A DNA stretch of 64,000 nucleotides, taken from the NCBI RefSeq assembly GCF_002216145.1, contig NZ_CP022278.1, forward strand, positions 1,426,001 through 1,490,000. The letters are read 5' to 3'. The stretch comes from Neisseria chenwenguii. GTDB taxonomy: Bacteria > Pseudomonadota > Gammaproteobacteria > Burkholderiales > Neisseriaceae. A program made the position numbers and the translations under genes. Below the pieces are notes generated by a model. That model worked only from the letters and a program-made list of their open reading frames with translations, was not told the origin of the DNA and ran no database searches. Below, piece by piece: positions 8,277-43,539 of the stretch (position 1 is the stretch's first letter; each line of letters starts with the position of its first letter).

Positions 8277-11200
8277 TCAATGTACCTTGTTTTGAATCAA
8301 ATCCAGCAATTTGATTAGATTTGCCTGCTTGCTGTATTCGGGATAGATAGCAATCATTTGCTTATAGCAATGTACTGCCAACTTTACATCACCTTCAAAC
8401 AACGCTGTTTCAGCAACGATTTCCCAATATTCGTAGGCATCTTTGGCGGTTGGCATCCTGTGGTGTTTGTAAACATATTCAGTATTACCCAAACGGTAGT
8501 GTGCCAGCATCAGCGGATACATTGCTGCATTCAGAAGAGATTCGGGCAAATTTTGGGCATAATCTAATATTCCGTACCAGTTTTTGTTTTTTGCCAGTAT
8601 TTCAGTATATGCAGAAACCAATTCAGGAAATTTAAAGATTTCTGCGCCAGCCGTACTTTCCATAAGCTGTTTCAGTACTTCGAATTGACCCGTTTTGGCA
8701 AGAGATACCGCATATTCAAGCAAGATTTCGGTTGAAAAACGGCTTAAATCTTTATCGAAACATTTGTCTATTTGGTCGATACATTTTTTATAGTTTTGTT
8801 TAGTGTAGGCTAGATGGGCAATTTCGATACGCGCAGGTACAAAGCCTCGAGTATGTTTTTCAAAATTTACTAGGCATTGGTGTGCCTGTTCATAATTGCC
8901 CGTATTCCGATAAGCACGCGAAAGCAGCAGCTCAGGCTGGTAGAGCTGCAAATCTTTTTTGTCTTTACAGACGGCCTTAGACAGCAGTCGGATAACGCCG
9001 TACCAATCTTCCGCTGCTGCGTTTACCCATGCCTGTGCCAAAGCAGCTTTGTTACCGTCGATTGTCGGCAGTAGAATATCAGCGCATTGACGGGCTTTGT
9101 CGGTTTGACCGAGTTTGGCGTAAGCCTGAAGCAGCCATACTTGGTGCGTTTCATTTAGGGACAGTAAGGGTTGCAATGCATCAATTACTCCCTGCCATTG
9201 CAGGTTTCGGTAGTTCAGACAGGAGTTGAGTAGCGCACGTTGGGTTTGGGACAGCCCGTCTTGTTCCAACAAATCGGAAGCCGCTTGTATATCGGAAGTT
9301 TCCAATGCTGCTGTACATAATGCAGTTATTGCTAATGCCTTATTTTCAGCATCTTTCGAACTCAGCAGCAACTGCGCTCTTGACGTTGCGTTTTTCCAGT
9401 CTTGGGCAGCAAGGGCGGATTCCAGCATGGTTTTGACAATACTGAAATCTGTTTCTGTCGGGAGTTTGTCCATTCGGATAATAGCTTCGTAAACCCGCTT
9501 GCAGTTGTCGGTGTCGCGGTATTTGAACGTTTGTTTGATGCGTACTGCGTAGTCGGATTCAATCTTCCCACCATTTTTCAGAATACTTTCCAGCTTATCG
9601 GTCAGTTCGTCCAATGTTTCGACAACCGGCCCGAAGCCATCTGTTTCGTATTCGAAGTAACCTTGCTGGTAGGTATGGATGCCTGAGCGGAATGCCTCCT
9701 TGTCGAATTGGTAATACAGCGTCTGTTTACCTAAAAACGCCATTTCAAAAGCAATGGACGAATAATCTGTAATCAACATGGATGATTGCTGAAACAGATT
9801 CTGCATACTGTTGTTGGATGTGGCTGCGCCCCATATTTTGATGTATGGCGGAACATCAAACAGTGCCAAATAAGGTTCGATGTTCGGATGTGGTGCAAAG
9901 GTAATCTCATAACCGTATTGCTTAGCAAGGGCTTCGAGTTTGTTGCTGTGCAGCAGGGCATACCAGTGTTGGGCGTAGTCTGTTTCCAGAAAACGGCTGT
10001 TTAATTCGCGCGTATTAGCACCGTTTCCGATGTGTGCTCCCATAATGTAGCTGCGCCATGTCGGTACAATCAGAATTTTTTTTGCATTTTCTACGTTACC
10101 TGAAAGCAAGCTGTCATGGCGTGGAAATCCTGTAAGAAAGGTTTCTTTTTTGCCGAGTTTGTATTTGTTGCCTTCTTCTATTACGGAATGATATTCGGGA
10201 ATGGTTACAGTGACTAAACCGTGAAAATTCTTTTTGGTGTTAAACCATTGAGATAAATCGTCTTTGGTAATGCCGTGTTGCAGGAATATAAATTTCTTGC
10301 TGAATTCGTAGTTGTCACCGAAGTAATTGTTAATATGCTTTTCTAAATGGCTGCTGATAATTTTGTTCGCTTTTCGCAGGTGTTTTTCATAGTCGGTAGA
10401 GCCGAATTCAACCAAATTGAATCCTTCTTTCTCCAAACGAGGCCAGTCGATTGAGTCTTTGTTTAAGACGAAACAGCATGCTTGCTCGGGATGGTTTCGC
10501 ATCATATAGCGGTAGAAATGTTCGGCGTTGTCATCGGCTTTAGTTTCTCTGTCCATCAACAGCCAACTACCGTCTGAAAGATATTTTTCAGACGGCCTGA
10601 ACAAATCAAGCAGTTCTTTGAAAGAAATACCTTTGGTAAAGGTTTTTCCTTTAACCGAAATCCGCATCGGTGTGCCGTTTAATTTAATGGTCAGTAAATC
10701 TTTCCCTTCGAAAAATGGCAGCCAGCTTCTTTTTTCATAGGCAAACAGTTTGCCGTTGAATTCGTTGGTTACGGTCTTCTGATAGGCTGGGATGGTATCT
10801 TTGCCGTTTACTTCAAAAGAGCAGTTATCGTCGAAGTAAGAGAAATAGCTGATTAAAACCTGTTTGTTTTCTCTGTCGATATTTTCGATATATGCAATTT
10901 GGAATGGAGGGCGTTGTTGCTTGAATGCGCCAAGCATCCCGACTTTATGGAAAAACCATGCTCCGGCGATGTTGAATTCCATAATATTTTTTTCATCAAT
11001 GTATTGAAATACCTTTTCATAACATTGATAGAATTCAACTTTTTGTGTTTCGGATAAAAAGCCTATTTTTTCAGGGCGATTGATTAGGTAAGATAAATAC
11101 CAATACATATCGTAAAGCGCGGTTTTTTGAATGTTATTGGGGATATATCCTAATTCCGGCTGGTATTTTTCCAGCATCGGCAAAAAGCCGTGTATAAATA

Positions 11201-12026
11201 CATCTTTGAATTTTTCGGGTTTCTGCCAGGAACCATCTAGTGTGGAAGTACCGTCTTCACGCTTACGGTAAAAGTAAACTGCCTCTTTCAGAAATAATGC
11301 TTGAGTGTGTTCTGCTGCCAACAGATAGTCTGCAATAAATTTGCCGTCTTCAAAATTAGGTTTGATGTGGTGGTTAAAGGTAAGCTTATTTGTTTTGATA
11401 ATTTGTGTTTTAAAGAAGCTGGAAGCAGCGGAAAGGTTTAGATGATTGTTTAAATCTTTTACGGCAACGGCATTTACCGCTTTGGGAAAGCGGTATTTCA
11501 ACGGATGGGTATCTTGCACAATCTTTTTGTTTTCCATGAACATTTTCAAATTGCACACCACCATGGATGTATTAGCGTGAACCGACAGGTTTTTATCCGT
11601 TTCTTGGAAATAATTGGGACTTAAAAAATCATCGGGGTCGATAAATGTAACCCATTCTGTTTCTACGGATTTCAATCCCAAATTGCGCGCGGATGCTTGT
11701 CCGCCGTTTTCTTTGTAGATATAGCGGATATTGTTCGGGTATTTTTTTTGCCATTTTTTGATGATTTCGGCGGAGTGGTCTTTTGAGCCGTCGTCTACGC
11801 AGATGATTTGGATGTGCTTTTTGAAAGACAGTGTTTGTTTGACCAAACTGTCGAAAAATTCGTCGAGATATTTCTCGACGTTGTAAACAGCCGTAACCAC
11901 CGTGAAATGGTGGCTGCCTGTGTATTTGACAGGGATGTGTTTCTTCATCTTTAAAGCGTATTTGTCGTACATGTCTTTAAAGAAAAGTTTTGGGTCTCTT
12001 TTTAATTTTCGCAGTTTGCGGTTCAT
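8277..12026 (-). CDS. Capsule polymerase: GT2 + TagF-like glycerophosphotransferase + TPR C-terminus
   Basis: A 1249-residue protein. Residues ~40-260 are a family 2 glycosyltransferase (FTVVTAVYNVEKYL, ICVDDGSKD, FIDPDDF). Residues ~480-850 match CDP-glycerol:glycerophosphotransferases of the TagB/TagF type, with FLQHGITKDD (~581-590), VPTWRS (654-659), APHPN (711-715) and ITDYSS (752-757). From ~860 to the end are helical repeats resembling TPRs. This architecture is known for the TagF-like capsule polymerases of meningococcal serogroups H and Z, which make glycerol-phosphate-containing polymers. No CDP-glycerol synthase gene is visible, so the acceptor and donor are inference. It overlaps the upstream Stealth gene by 50 bp. 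AT-rich composition fits horizontal acquisition of region A. Confidence 0.88.
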   Translation of the reverse strand: MNRKLRKLKRDPKLFFKDMYDKYALKMKKHIPVKYTGSHHFTVVTAVYNVEKYLDEFFDSLVKQTLSFKKHIQIICVDDGSKDHSAEIIKKWQKKYPNNIRYIYKENGGQASARNLGLKSVETEWVTFIDPDDFLSPNYFQETDKNLSVHANTSMVVCNLKMFMENKKIVQDTHPLKYRFPKAVNAVAVKDLNNHLNLSAASSFFKTQIIKTNKLTFNHHIKPNFEDGKFIADYLLAAEHTQALFLKEAVYFYRKREDGTSTLDGSWQKPEKFKDVFIHGFLPMLEKYQPELGYIPNNIQKTALYDMYWYLSYLINRPEKIGFLSETQKVEFYQCYEKVFQYIDEKNIMEFNIAGAWFFHKVGMLGAFKQQRPPFQIAYIENIDRENKQVLISYFSYFDDNCSFEVNGKDTIPAYQKTVTNEFNGKLFAYEKRSWLPFFEGKDLLTIKLNGTPMRISVKGKTFTKGISFKELLDLFRPSEKYLSDGSWLLMDRETKADDNAEHFYRYMMRNHPEQACCFVLNKDSIDWPRLEKEGFNLVEFGSTDYEKHLRKANKIISSHLEKHINNYFGDNYEFSKKFIFLQHGITKDDLSQWFNTKKNFHGLVTVTIPEYHSVIEEGNKYKLGKKETFLTGFPRHDSLLSGNVENAKKILIVPTWRSYIMGAHIGNGANTRELNSRFLETDYAQHWYALLHSNKLEALAKQYGYEITFAPHPNIEPYLALFDVPPYIKIWGAATSNNSMQNLFQQSSMLITDYSSIAFEMAFLGKQTLYYQFDKEAFRSGIHTYQQGYFEYETDGFGPVVETLDELTDKLESILKNGGKIESDYAVRIKQTFKYRDTDNCKRVYEAIIRMDKLPTETDFSIVKTMLESALAAQDWKNATSRAQLLLSSKDAENKALAITALCTAALETSDIQAASDLLEQDGLSQTQRALLNSCLNYRNLQWQGVIDALQPLLSLNETHQVWLLQAYAKLGQTDKARQCADILLPTIDGNKAALAQAWVNAAAEDWYGVIRLLSKAVCKDKKDLQLYQPELLLSRAYRNTGNYEQAHQCLVNFEKHTRGFVPARIEIAHLAYTKQNYKKCIDQIDKCFDKDLSRFSTEILLEYAVSLAKTGQFEVLKQLMESTAGAEIFKFPELVSAYTEILAKNKNWYGILDYAQNLPESLLNAAMYPLMLAHYRLGNTEYVYKHHRMPTAKDAYEYWEIVAETALFEGDVKLAVHCYKQMIAIYPEYSKQANLIKLLDLIQNKVH

Positions 12027-25895: not shown

Positions 25896-26001
25896 GGGAC
25901 CTTTGCAAAGTTAAAAATTTCCATCTGAAACTTCTCTGTCGTCATTCCCGCCTGTGCGGGAATGACGACGAACAGTATTCTCACTTTTTTGCAAAGGTCT
26001 C
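25896..26001. mobile_element. MITE-like element with IS1106-like ends and a central dRS3
   Basis: Terminal inverted repeats GGGACCTTTGCAAAG (left) and TTTTGCAAAGGTCTC (right) enclose ~75 bp with a dRS3-type palindrome at 25944-25963. AGGTA is present immediately on both sides, as expected for a target duplication. GAGACCTTTGCAAAA is, from memory, the end sequence of IS1106-type elements of Neisseria. No transposase is encoded. Confidence 0.65.
25944..25963. repeat. dRS3 repeat
   Basis: ATTCCCGCCTGTGCGGGAAT fits the 20-bp Neisseria dRS3 pattern ATTCCC-N8-GGGAAT. Confidence 0.85.
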
Positions 26002-39752: not shown

Positions 39753-40123
39753 TGCGGATTTTGGCTTTGATTTTGGTTTTGCTGGTGGCGGCGGAACATT
39801 TTTTCATTATGTATTTGGAAATGTTTAAAATCCCCGGCCCGCAGGCAGCGAGGATTTTCGGGCTGCCGCAGGAGTTTATGCAGCAAAAGCATGTGCAGAA
39901 AATGTTCAGCAATCAGGGGCTGTATAACGGTTTTCTCGCCGTCGGCCTCATCTGGGCGCAGTTCGCCGCACCCGAAAACGCCCGTTTCGGCGCGCTGGCG
40001 CTATTTCTCGGTTTCGTGATTGCCGCCGCGCTTTGGGGCGCGAAAACCGCCAATAAAGGCATTTTGTTCAGACAGGGACTGCCCGCCGTTTTGGCGATGC
40101 TGGCCGTAGCGGGGGCGTATTGA
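39749..40123 (+). CDS. DUF1304 membrane protein in the queuosine operon
   Basis: A 124-residue protein with about four membrane helices. The motifs AAEHFFIMYLEMFKI, FMQQKHVQKMFSNQGLYNGFLA and GILFRQGLPAVLA are those of DUF1304, a family without established function. It overlaps queD by four bases (ATGA) and queE by four, so all three are translationally coupled. The tight embedding suggests a role connected with 7-deazaguanine metabolism, perhaps transport of a precursor, but that is inference only. Confidence 0.85.
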   Translation: MMRILALILVLLVAAEHFFIMYLEMFKIPGPQAARIFGLPQEFMQQKHVQKMFSNQGLYNGFLAVGLIWAQFAAPENARFGALALFLGFVIAAALWGAKTANKGILFRQGLPAVLAMLAVAGAY

Positions 40124-40755
40124 TGACCGAAATCCGCCCCGAAAACCCGAGCTACCGCCTTGTCGAAATGTTTGAAAGCCTGCAAGGTGAGGGCTACAAC
40201 ACCGGTATGCCCGCCGTGTTTATCCGCTTGGGCAAATGCAACCTCGCCTGCGCGTGGTGCGACACCGATTATCTGAAATTCGACAGCGTGCCGCTTTCCG
40301 GGATTTTAGGCCGTCTGAAAAACCACAGCGCCCGCAACATCATCATCACCGGTGGCGAGCCGACCATACAGCCGCATTTGGATATTTTGTTGAATCGTTT
40401 GAAATCAGAAGGTTACAAACTATTTCTCGAAACCAACGGCCTCAACCCCGCGCCCGCGCAGTTCGACTACATCGCCGCCAGCCCCAAAGCCTGCTACGCG
40501 GAAAAATACGAAAAACAATGTATCACCGCCGCCGACGAAGTGCGGATTGTTGCCGACGGCGATGTCGTGGCGTTTTGCGAAAAAATGGAACGGAAAATCT
40601 GCACCGCCCGCTACTACCTCTCGCCCTGCGAGCGCGGCGGGGAAATGAACATCTACGACACCATCCGCCAAATCGGCCTGCTCAACAGCCGCGAAAACGC
40701 GCCCGTGTATTGGCAGCTCAGCGTGCAGACGCATAAGTGGGCAGGGATTGAATAG
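40120..40755 (+). CDS. queE: 7-carboxy-7-deazaguanine synthase
   Basis: QueE is a radical-SAM enzyme converting carboxytetrahydropterin to 7-carboxy-7-deazaguanine. The 211-residue protein carries CNLACAWCDTDY (C-x3-C-x2-C cluster), EGYNTGMPAVFIRLGKC and NIIITGGEPTIQP. ATG 40120 overlaps the DUF1304 gene. Last gene of the operon. Confidence 0.95.
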   Translation: MMTEIRPENPSYRLVEMFESLQGEGYNTGMPAVFIRLGKCNLACAWCDTDYLKFDSVPLSGILGRLKNHSARNIIITGGEPTIQPHLDILLNRLKSEGYKLFLETNGLNPAPAQFDYIAASPKACYAEKYEKQCITAADEVRIVADGDVVAFCEKMERKICTARYYLSPCERGGEMNIYDTIRQIGLLNSRENAPVYWQLSVQTHKWAGIE

Positions 40756-40942
40756 GGGGAAGTTCTGCATGATTGTAATCTTCCAACAGCCGGAGCCGCC
40801 GTAGGACGGCTCAGATAGCGTAACCGAATTTGGTTTTCAGACGGCCTTTGAATTGTCCGAAGGCCGTCTGAAAATTTTCAGACAAAGCTGTGTCGTGTTA
40901 CGTTTGTGCCTCGTTGACACGGCCTACGCTTGTTACGGAAGT
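40756..40942. other. Gap between queE and the small-peptide cluster
   Basis: Contains DUS copies (around 40833-40885) that may terminate the queE transcript on one side and the leftward peptide transcript on the other. No gene. Confidence 0.5.
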
Positions 40943-41065
40943 TTAAAACGGAAATGGAAATTTAAAGGGACCGTTCGGTTTAGGGAAAAGGTCAGGAGTA
41001 CAGGGATGACCTGGCCACAAACCGCCTGCAACATTTTCCAATTCAACTTGATTCAATTCTTTCAT
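40943..41065 (-). CDS. Double-glycine-leader peptide 1 (bacteriocin-like precursor)
   Basis: A 40-residue ORF too short for usual gene calling. It begins with the 15-residue leader MKELNQVELENVAGG, ending in the GG processing site used by C39-peptidase ABC exporters. The 25-residue core starts LWPGHPCTP, ends FKFPFPF and is rich in Pro (8) and Phe (5), with one Cys. TTAAGGAGATTATT precedes the ATG, an excellent ribosome site. It is last of three leader-bearing ORFs on this strand. No exporter, modification enzyme or immunity gene is in the window; whether it acts as bacteriocin, RiPP precursor or signal is unknown. Confidence 0.75.
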   Translation of the reverse strand: MKELNQVELENVAGGLWPGHPCTPDLFPKPNGPFKFPFPF

Positions 41066-41078
41066 AATAATCTCCTTA
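41031..41078. repeat. 48-bp leader repeat, copy 1
   Basis: Covers the ribosome site and first 11 codons of peptide gene 1. It matches 41251-41298 at 45 of 48 positions, so the leader and translation start of genes 1 and 2 arose by duplication while the cores diverged. Confidence 0.85.
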
Positions 41079-41091
41079 ACAAGAATCCGTT

Positions 41092-41111
41092 ATTCCCGCC
41101 TGCGCGGGAAT
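41092..41111. repeat. dRS3 repeat between peptide genes 1 and 2
   Basis: ATTCCCGCCTGCGCGGGAAT fits ATTCCC-N8-GGGAAT. dRS3 copies are recombination and filamentous-phage insertion points in Neisseria. Confidence 0.85.
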
Positions 41112-41153
41112 AACAGAATTAAGTTCTTTTTATTTCGACAGATAAATATTCTC

Positions 41154-41285
41154 TTATCCCGAACTCAAGCTATTCCATAGTGGTGATTTCCGTCCAATTC
41201 TAACCAGCATAAGGTCACAAGGTTCAGGCCCGAAAAATCCGCCTCCGGCTACACTTTCCAATTCAACTTGATTCAGTTCTTTCAT
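41154..41285 (-). CDS. Double-glycine-leader peptide 2 (bacteriocin-like precursor)
   Basis: A 43-residue ORF with leader MKELNQVELESVAGG, identical to peptide 1 except one residue. The 28-residue core begins GFFGPEPCDL, has one Cys and two Arg, and ends NSLSSG. The ribosome site is CTTAAGGAGGTTATT. The sequence upstream of it is a near-identical 48-bp copy of that of gene 1. Core similarity to gene 1 is limited to an aromatic residue, a Pro and a Cys soon after GG. Confidence 0.75.
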   Translation of the reverse strand: MKELNQVELESVAGGGFFGPEPCDLMLVRIGRKSPLWNSLSSG

Positions 41286-41298
41286 AATAACCTCCTTA
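41251..41298. repeat. 48-bp leader repeat, copy 2
   Basis: Partner of 41031-41078, 220 bp away in the same orientation, three mismatches. Confidence 0.85.
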
Positions 41299-41415
41299 AG
41301 ATTAAAAAGTTAATTTAAACCTGAATCACTCAGGCATAAAATAATAGAGAAAGAAACACCAGCTTCCTCCATCTCCAAACGAAAGAAGCGGTTTTGCATC
41401 TTCCGTCCGAATTCC

Positions 41416-41538
41416 TTAGTCGCGCTCTGCCAATCGGTCGACAACGGATGTCCTGCGCGGATAAAAACCGAATTGTGCGGGCATCCAAGCTTCGCCGCCC
41501 GCTACCTGTTCCAATTCGTTCAAGCCCAACGGTTTCAT
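41416..41538 (-). CDS. Double-glycine-leader peptide 3 (bacteriocin-like precursor)
   Basis: A 40-residue ORF with a diverged 15-residue leader MKPLGLNELEQVAGG and a 25-residue core beginning EAWMPAQFGFYPRR and ending RLAERD, without Cys. AGGAGG lies 11 bases before ATG 41538, a little far; an in-frame alternative start was not found. It is the first of the three in transcription order and shares the leader length, the LExVAGG end and the aromatic/Pro pair after GG with the other two. Confidence 0.65.
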   Translation of the reverse strand: MKPLGLNELEQVAGGEAWMPAQFGFYPRRTSVVDRLAERD

Positions 41539-42027
41539 AATTCTTCAATCCTCCTGTTTGGAAAAATATCGTCCTACACTACACATAGAGCGTTTGTTTT
41601 TAATCACAATAAATTAAACAATCCGCCTGCATAACCGGGTTGCCGAATACTGTATCCGTGTTAGTAAGACATGCCGTTTCTTGATTTTGTTTCTTGATTT
41701 TGGGAAGTTTTCTGAAAAGAAGATTTAAATTTCTTTTACCATAAAAGTATTTTTATTTGAAAATTTCATAATAAACTTACAGTAAGTTTGCAAAATCATG
41801 CGGCATGGTTGGGGTTTAGAATTCTGTATTACAATATAGTCATGTTAATTAAAAGTTATTGTTGTTTTAAAAAATGATAACTGTCGAAATTTACGGCCGT
41901 CTGAAAAACCGGGTTATGTTGCACGGTCGGATTTTCAGACGGCCACACTTGGCGTAAAATACCGCCCGACCCCCTATCTTTTCAGGCCGTCTGAAAAACG
42001 GCCTGTCTTTTATTTTCCGGAAAAAAC
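41539..42027. other. AT-rich upstream region of the peptide cluster and lysS
   Basis: About 490 bp, clearly AT-rich from 41570 to 41880, with no supported gene. It must hold the promoter for the leftward peptide genes. Two inverted DUS copies at about 41897-41943 and a third at 41985 precede lysS. Confidence 0.5.
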
Positions 42028-43539
42028 ATGAGCGAACAAAACACTCCGCAAACCGAGCCGCAGTTGGACGAAAACCAAATCATCGCGCTGCGCCGTGAAA
42101 AATTAAACGAAATCCGCAAACAGGGCGTTGCGTTTCCCAACCGGTTCAAGCGCGATGCGTTTGCGGGGGATTTACACGCGCAATACGATGCTCTGAGCAA
42201 AGAGGAGCTCGACCCGCAGGGCGTGCCCGTCAAGGTGGCCGGCCGGATGATGCTCCAGCGCGCGATGGGCAAAGCGAGTTTTGCCACGCTGCAAGACATG
42301 AGCGGCCAGATTCAGGTGTATGTGAATAATCAAGGTGTGGGCGAAGACGTGCACAACGCTTTCAAACACTGGGATTTGGGCGACATCATCGGCGTGGAAG
42401 GCACGCTGTTCAAAACCAATCACGGCGAACTGACCGTGCGCGCCGCCAAGCTCGAGCTGTTGAGCAAATCGCTGCGCCCGCTGCCGAGCCAGCATTTCGG
42501 TTTGGCCGATCAAGAGCAGAAATACCGCCGGCGTTATGTCGATTTGATTGTAAACAAAGAATCGCGCGATATTTTTGTCAAACGCAGCCAAATCATCCAA
42601 ACCGTGCGCAACTATATGGTCGGCGAACGCTATCTCGAAGTCGAAACCCCGATGATGCACCCGATTCCCGGCGGCGCAACGGCCAAACCCTTCGTTACCC
42701 ACCACAACGCGCTGGATATGCCACTCTACCTGCGCATCGCCCCCGAGCTTTACCTGAAACGCCTCGTAGTCGGCGGCCTCGAGCGCGTGTTTGAAATCAA
42801 CCGCAGCTTCCGCAACGAAGGCATGAGCACGCGCCACAACCCAGAATTTACCATGATGGAGTTTTACGAAGCCTTCTGCACCTACGAGCGTATGATGGAA
42901 ATGACCGAAGGCGTCATCCGCGCCTGCGCCAAAGCGGTTTGCGGCACGGCGAAAATCACCTACAACGGAAAAGAAGTCGATCTGGAAAGCCCGTTTGAAC
43001 GCCTGACCATCTTAGACGCCATCAAAAAATACAACCCGCAATACACCGACGCGCAACTGCAAGACGAAGCGTGGCTCAAGCAGGAAATCGTCAAACACGG
43101 CGAAAAAATCCCGCCCTCGCCCGGCATCGGCAGCCTGCAACTGGCGCTGTTTGAAGGCTGCGCCGAAGGCAAGCTGTGGAACCCGACCTTCATCATCGAC
43201 TACCCCGTCGAAGTTTCCCCGCTGGCGCGCGCCTCAGATACCAAACCCGGTCTGACCGACCGCTTCGAGTTGTTCGTCGTCGGCCGTGAGCTGGCCAACG
43301 GCTATTCGGAGTTGAACGACCCCGAAGACCAGTCCGCCCGCTTCAAAGCCCAGGTCGCCCAAAAAGACGCCGGCGACGATGAAGCCATGCACTACGATGC
43401 CGACTACATCCGCGCCATGGAATACGGCCTGCCGCCCACCGGCGGCTCCGGCATCGGCCTCGACCGCTTGGTTATGCTGCTGACCGATGCACAAACCATT
43501 CGCGATGTAATTCTGTTTCCGCAGATGCGCCCCGAGTAA
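42028..43539 (+). CDS. lysS: Lysyl-tRNA synthetase (class II)
   Basis: LysS charges tRNA-Lys. The 503-residue protein has the N-terminal OB-fold anticodon-binding domain ([23 protein letters not shown] in two pieces) and the class II catalytic core with motif 2 [21 protein letters not shown] (two pieces) and motif 3 [14 protein letters not shown]. Normal length. Preceded by a DUS and a GGAAAAAAC ribosome-site-like stretch. Confidence 0.97.

Follow-up and report, generated by a model that had tools for sequence, protein, structure and literature searches.

What are the three short tandem ORFs that lie on the minus strand between queE and lysS of Neisseria chenwenguii, and what would their products do? 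The window analysed here is a stretch of 64,000 nucleotides (C1:1426001-1490000) in a genome of 2,496,444 bases in one contig. All three ORFs are intact, as are their ribosome sites (of the AGGAGG or AAGGAG type, upstream of each) and their 15-residue LExVAGG leaders, and the cores of 25, 28 and 25 residues are as an earlier note on this DNA had described them, as are the occurrence of Cys and the aromatic residue and Pro found soon after GG. The ORFs of that note stand but their order does not: transcription would run from the 41538 end, so that its third gene is the first transcribed and becomes gene 1 here. We propose that the locus is a bacteriocin-like three-gene secreted-peptide operon with a distant exporter, in which cargo is exchanged at the leader, a reading that we regard as reasonably probable from the following features of the DNA.

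40123-40755, plus strand: queE (QueE is the best NCBIfam family, with a score below its cut-offs)
40834-40874, no strand: inverted uptake-sequence repeat pair with 15-nt arms, between the operon end and queE
40943-41065, minus strand: gene 3 (cargo), leader MKELNQVELENVAGG and 25-aa core LWPGHPCTPDLFPKPNGPFKFPFPF
41092-41111, no strand: 20-bp palindrome ATTCCC-N8-GGGAAT between genes 2 and 3, inside a 14-pair hairpin (41086-41117)
41154-41285, minus strand: gene 2 (cargo), leader MKELNQVELESVAGG and 28-aa core GFFGPEPCDLMLVRIGRKSPLWNSLSSG
41344-41372, minus strand: hairpin 2, 9 pairs, then ATTATTTT
41373-41412, minus strand: hairpin 1 (RNAalifold consensus, covariance model), 18 consensus pairs, 15 formed in the window
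41416-41538, minus strand: gene 1 (lead peptide), leader MKPLGLNELEQVAGG and 25-aa core EAWMPAQFGFYPRRTSVVDRLAERD
41539-41869, minus strand: AT-rich upstream (promoter) region of the head module, matching three other copies
41895-41944, no strand: inverted uptake-sequence repeat pair on the lysS side of the operon
42028-43539, plus strand: lysS (NCBIfam LysS, above cut-off)

The peptide stretch is AT-rich (GC 0.30-0.45 vs 0.51-0.62 in its surroundings), GC is 0.30 at 41600-41899, and the upstream region 41539-41869 holds weak sigma-70-like matches only. Inverted pairs of the uptake repeat GGCCGTCTGAAA lie on both sides, and with 73 copies of this repeat in the window such flanks are common here; the pair at 40834-40874, which the terminator scan did not flag, is a possible shared terminator for the operon and queE. 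The dRS3-like palindrome between genes 2 and 3 recurs at 25944-25963 and has no third copy in the window. Seven proteins encoded in the flanks were scanned, namely QueC, QueD, QueE, LysS, MurJ, a DsbA-like one, and one without a family, and none is a sensor or regulator. Between 400 bp before and 1,000 bp after the three genes, no convincing immunity-like ORF with a ribosome site was recognised, a scan that unrecognised immunity genes could escape. The earlier note had looked to conservation of the ORFs between lysS and queE across Neisseria, which was not borne out: 42 other genus genomes have queE, and in the 29 neighbourhoods compared (1.5 kb on either side of queE, with one truncated by the end of its contig) the scan found 0 GG ORFs. 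Among the 30 loci including our own, lysS is within reach of queE in this genome only.

A GG leader has about 15 residues, hydrophobic at -4, -7, and -12, with GG or GA at -2/-1. All three leaders carry L(-12), L(-7), V(-4), and GG, and are thus double-glycine leaders. With an HMM made of 27 leaders from other Neisseria genomes only, the three ORFs take the first three places (E 3.9e-8, 1.5e-7, and 5.9e-7) out of 3,499 start-anchored 22-mers in the window, and the next best 22-mer, internal starts of the same ORFs aside, has E 1.1. Genome-wide, a DNA pattern for L-E-x-V-x-G-G gave 33 matches vs 4 with the reversed-pattern control. For TIGR03949, the lactobin A/cerein 7B class IIb bacteriocins, gene 3 scores 21.8 bits vs a cut-off of 21.5, in a match that covers just residues 2-18, essentially its leader, while gene 2 reaches 13.6 bits and gene 1 has no match. 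The best Pfam scores are 12.3 vs 27.1 bits for gene 3 to PF10439 and 15.1 vs 20.4 for gene 1 to ComC, with none for gene 2.

C39 exporters recognise the leader, cut after GG, and export the peptide in one step. The genome contains a single match to the C39 peptidase (PF03412, E 4.6e-37), which lies in a C39-peptidase ABC protein of 717 aa (C1:1110559-1112712) about 354 kb from the locus. It has the C39 residues Q35/C41, H114, and D130 together with Walker A, Walker B, and LSGGQ, its residues 26-710 align with the solved PCAT1 (4ry2, E 1.2e-93), and its closest named relative, in one scan of named genomes, is that of N. wadsworthii (77%). Three GG peptides, whose cores have 41, 40, and 44 aa, and a 436-aa protein of the HlyD type are encoded upstream in the same direction, and a TolC-type protein (447 aa) is near in divergent orientation, so that the PCAT, MFP, and TolC of class II microcin systems are all present in the genome, outside the window. 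The C39 exporter, the HlyD partner, and the further LExVAGG ORFs for which the earlier note advised a genome search were therefore all found. Its orphan cluster served by an exporter elsewhere keeps the distant exporter with its HlyD and TolC partners but is no orphan, given 31 leader matches in the genome. Since this is the only C39 match, we consider that the same exporter probably serves the other dispersed GG peptides too. The exporter of microcin V has been shown to accept cargo of very diverse composition (PMC10231218).

The 31 matches come from a 15-position leader model built from leaders of this genome, so that 24 of them are circular and 7 are new to the model; no such circularity affects what it finds in other genomes. 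The GG genes form clusters of ten (C1:528452-531227), two (C1:539309-539766), four (C1:378071-379200), and two (C1:2044050-2044420), with three more beside the exporter, the three in the window, and singles. Across 46 genus genomes, 14 have at least one leader match and seven have at least five (31, 15, 14, 8, 7, 7, and 5), and all seven belong to the 11 genomes whose C39-ABC frame is uninterrupted and at least 690 aa long. With our own genome excluded, the exporter frame is present in 6/6 peptide-rich genomes vs 4/39 others at the cut of at least five, which was picked after the table was seen (p 2.6e-5), and in 6/13 vs 4/32 at a cut of at least one (p 0.022, a weaker association), p-values that are only a guide since the genomes are related and not independent. 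Four of the ten other genomes with an uninterrupted exporter have zero leader matches. In each of the six other peptide-rich genomes, an exporter shares 75-79% identity with ours and lies near HlyD and TolC genes.

The earlier note spoke of three divergent cores, and this may hold for genes 2 and 3, for which no relatives were found. It does not hold for gene 1, whose core starts EAWMPAQFGFYPRRT and is not divergent, since it has close relatives and belongs to a conserved family within a repeated head module. Specifically, gene 1 (40 aa) is 68% identical to P0001, which is encoded three times elsewhere in the genome in identical copies (C1:528452, 530807, and 539309), 70% to P0003 of N. oralis, and 73% to P0004. 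All four known lead sequences share W18, P20, and GFYPRRT without change, and the lead peptide is small and neutral or acidic. Against the copies in its own genome gene 1 has dN 0.21 and dS 0.61 (40 codons), which suggest constraint; in codons 16-30 about 1/10 synonymous vs about 4/35 nonsynonymous sites are changed, very small counts. Among 83 family genomes full-length lead matches were found in this genome only; genome G021 gives just two partial matches to the lead model, one over positions 1-18 (E 2.3e-4) and one over 1-25 (E 4.7e-4). The second gene of G021 (core INWDSFGFLDWLD..., 25 aa) shows a weak alignment that lies for the most part in the leader. We also considered whether a mobile element carries the lead peptide and set this aside, with no plasmid or phage match and no relative among 76 pattern matches in IMG/VR.

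The head module comprises about 330 bp of upstream sequence, gene 1, a double hairpin, and the ribosome site and leader of the next gene, and the genome has four copies with three unrelated cargo types behind them. Window positions 41241-41869 are 66-67% identical to the three other copies over 641-651 alignment columns, and the likeness ends at the leader. The identical positions amount to 189/315 ungapped positions in the upstream region, 95/123 in the lead ORF, 78/104 to 88/123 in the spacer, and 36-38/45 in the next leader. Behind the lead gene of every copy comes a gene whose leader matches, and the ribosome site and leader of gene 2 align with those of the second gene of the other modules. 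Behind the heads stand the core of the window, two cores related to each other in two of the copies (NEFAKDIGHAVGDAARW... and NDFTYDVGHAVGDGARW...), and, as the third kind, a 61-aa core rich in Gly. Two of the heads are 99.8% identical over 527 bp and diverge right after GG into a 36-aa core and the unrelated 61-aa core, and in the window the ribosome site and leader of gene 3 repeat those of gene 2 (71 nt, 83%) with a new core behind. Together these are direct evidence of core replacement behind conserved leaders.

Hairpin 1 of the double hairpin starts 3-4 nt past the lead stop codon. Folding is unusually stable in three of the four copies, with z of -2.9 for the window and, for two arrays, of -5.7 and -7.0; two control stretches of 102 nt taken upstream are ordinary (z -0.2 and -0.4). 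Between the two distinct versions 13/27 pairs differ, of which 10 are still paired (8 by one-sided and 2 by two-sided changes) and 3 are broken in the window, counts that come from two distinct sequences, the same ones that had served to derive the structure. Sliding the pairing partners, a control with a clear outcome, lowered the pairing from 94% to 50-57% and the two-sided changes from 2 to 0 or 1; a letter-shuffle control was reached by 115/500 and, with two sequences, is weak and not decisive. In 46 genus genomes the covariance model has strong matches only at the four head modules of this genome, each at the lead stop codon; the scores there are high by construction, but the exclusivity among the 46 genomes is not. 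The four other matches up to E 0.5, one of them in this genome, have E 0.08-0.29 and are at chance level. A search for a known RNA family gave two chance-level miRNA matches only, far below cut-offs. The tail of the hairpin is moderately U-rich only, and the element may be attenuator- or stabiliser-like.

The cores of the two cargo genes differ behind their shared leader. Protein searches, which require shared 5-residue words, found no homologue of the gene 2 core and returned only itself for that of gene 3, and it is plausible that both are under diversification. The gene 3 core is 56% Pro plus aromatic, exceeding every one of 2,035 overlapping 25-mers of six window proteins that served as the reference. 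This odd make-up is a recurrent type in such arrays, as shown by 56 cores from seven genomes (28/32 of our own, without two identical lead copies, one near-duplicate of 70 aa, and one of 9 aa, and 28/33 from six relatives, without three near-duplicates and two long ones). The 28 short cores (at most 32 aa) have a Pro plus aromatic mean of 0.27 vs 0.15 for the reference, and since the 28 longer ones are also above it (0.20 vs 0.15, p 2e-4), the trend is not limited to short cores; gene 3, at 0.56, marks the extreme. The net charges of the three window peptides are 0 to +1.

We propose that transcription from the AT-rich region 41539-41869 would yield the conserved lead peptide and then the two variable cargo peptides. 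The C39-ABC protein with its HlyD and TolC partners would bind the L(-12), L(-7), V(-4), GG leaders and cut after GG, and the cores of 25-28 residues would leave via the type I channel. The double hairpin most likely sets unequal expression of lead and cargo, either because transcription partly ends there or because the RNA upstream is stabilised, and recombination at the conserved head and leader would exchange the cargo. The mature peptides would most likely act in competition between related bacteria, in the manner of a class II microcin or bacteriocin. Against this operon stand the distance of the exporter, the lack of a recognised immunity-like gene beside the ORFs, the missing relatives of the gene 2 and gene 3 cores, the four exporter-bearing genomes with zero leader matches, and a lead peptide unlike typical membrane-active bacteriocins.

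In another reading the lead peptide is a secreted signal (a pheromone) or an expression-control peptide, with the cargo genes as effectors. In the streptococcal blp/com systems a pheromone peptide and bacteriocins use one exporter, and here the same lead peptide comes first in all four head modules while the cargo varies, is small and not cationic with its GFYPRRT unchanged, and comes with an upstream region of its own and two hairpins behind its stop. The flanking proteins scanned offer no partner in the form of a sensor or regulator, however, the family is found only in this genome, N. oralis, and the source of P0004, and the modules may be alike merely as recent duplicates, and so we think such a role unlikely. 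A still less probable role for the lead ORF is a mainly cis-acting one, an attenuation in which translation of the ORF as far as its stop codon, at the foot of hairpin 1, would set the read-through to the cargo genes. The 3-4 nt between stop codon and hairpin fit this, and synonymous sites in codons 16-30 as conserved as nonsynonymous ones hint at constraint on the nucleotides, but the codon counts and the modest U content of the hairpin tail weaken the case, and in its leader half the ORF retains the GG-leader positions and looks like an exported peptide. Going further than either, the head module could be a transferable control-and-secretion unit in which the secreted GFYPRRT lead, promoter, and double hairpin govern recombined cargo, the lead being a pheromone or dose-setter for the roughly 31 peptides of one exporter; we would call this an unlikely extension.

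The cargo genes might instead be a decayed remnant of a duplicated head, their leaders running into arbitrary sequence and the cores of genes 2 and 3 being non-functional. The missing relatives of both cores, the dRS3-like repeat between the two genes, and the lack of a recognised immunity gene would all suit such decay. The integrity of all three ORFs, ribosome sites, and leaders would not, nor would the leaders of genes 2 and 3, which differ by 5 synonymous changes and 1 nonsynonymous, nor the match of gene 3 to a recurring compositional class in other Neisseria arrays, and we judge decay to be unlikely. The peptides might also be self-directed and act in autolysis rather than against competitors, as do the gonococcal Naps, three GG peptides of the same genus with a role in autolysis and no detected antibacterial activity (PMC11798529). 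As described there, the Naps are cationic and accompanied by napP, napF, napH, napI, and napR, and the space between queE and lysS holds no such set and encodes peptides near neutrality, which makes a Nap-like role improbable. The three-gene secreted-peptide operon with exchangeable cargo is hence the reading that we carry forward.

How new would such an operon be? The earlier note called it an undescribed system, which is too broad, as C39-ABC exporters with several GG peptides (PMC2784325) and the GG peptides of the gonococcal nap island (PMC11798529) are already published in Neisseria. Our searches of open-licence PubMed Central, represented mostly by titles and abstracts, met no description of the head module with its double hairpin and conserved lead, and GFYPRR, VELENVAGG, and KELEKVAGG brought up no paper there. 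The nearest precedent is N. meningitidis 8013, which has a C39-ABC exporter, an adaptor, a TolC-like protein, and several GG peptides (NeMeSys) proposed to be bacteriocins or pheromones; five candidates are described, Gly-rich and very basic or acidic (PMC2784325), whereas the genome studied here has 31 leader matches, a repeated head, a conserved lead, a double hairpin, and short Pro/aromatic cores. The GG peptides of the gonococcal nap island, published in 2025, share with our locus three close GG-leader genes in a low-GC stretch of a Neisseria genome, but have the nap genes alongside (PMC11798529), while here the neighbours are QueE and LysS and the exporter is of the ABC type and elsewhere. 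Class II microcins such as microcin V resemble it in the GG leader, the C39-ABC catalytic triad, the MFP, the TolC, and a peptide size below 10 kDa (PMC9746304); our predicted cores have 25-28 aa, their exporter is unlinked, and no immunity gene was recognised within the 400 bp before to 1,000 bp after the three genes. With this last result, and with an activity that is predicted only, we do not file the locus as a class II microcin. The McbABCI system of Moraxella catarrhalis likewise combines a GG bacteriocin with an MFP and a C39-ABC protein but differs in that its four genes form a single linked operon, an immunity gene among them, and that its peptide is larger (PMC2761928).

If our proposal is true, one exporter handles a large dispersed peptide set in a Neisseria, and a fixed head (promoter region, lead peptide, double hairpin, and leader) accepts new cargo via recombination, giving a testable account of secreted-peptide diversification in naturally transformable Neisseria and candidate genes for inhibitory activities between them. 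We know of no earlier peptide-based communication system in Neisseria, and a transferable control unit with a pheromone-like lead would, if true, be the first.

Several other GG genes deserve mention in their own right. The ten-gene array at C1:528452-531227 (8452-11227 of locus L041), between lpxK and xseA, has cores that come in pairs, of a GHAVGDAARW and a glycine-zipper type, and in this resemble two-peptide bacteriocins; one of its genes scores 24.5 vs 37 bits, below cut-off, for the lactococcin G-alpha family, and it encloses a 32-aa strongly hydrophobic ORF with a ribosome site and no GG leader (L041 9527-9625). Short lipoprotein-like ORFs of 83 and 110 aa lie behind two GG-peptide genes (L260 875-1126, from C1:539774 onward, and L259 1744-2076); they align weakly with each other (28% over 74 columns), the 110-aa one has no NCBIfam family, and they are possible immunity or partner proteins. 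A radical-SAM-modified product was considered, since one of the other GG genes here matches a cyclophane family weakly (13.4 vs 33 bits). L253 and L254 (C1:1136197 and C1:1172843) each encode a GG peptide of 85 aa with a Gly-rich core; the two are near-duplicates at separate sites, and their ribosome-site regions are also nearly identical. In relative G020, a GG peptide (L215 12723-12908) has the core end RNPRIPPGREIPLPRPIPRPELM, which resembles proline-rich antimicrobial peptides that act inside cells. Finally, a Vibrio exporter locus (L167 12372-12704) and our own genome (L043 3869-4200) contain GG peptide pairs that look alike by eye, a hydrophobic core ending GRGF/SRGF.DG with a D..GRA.GR core, perhaps a two-peptide bacteriocin common to both classes.
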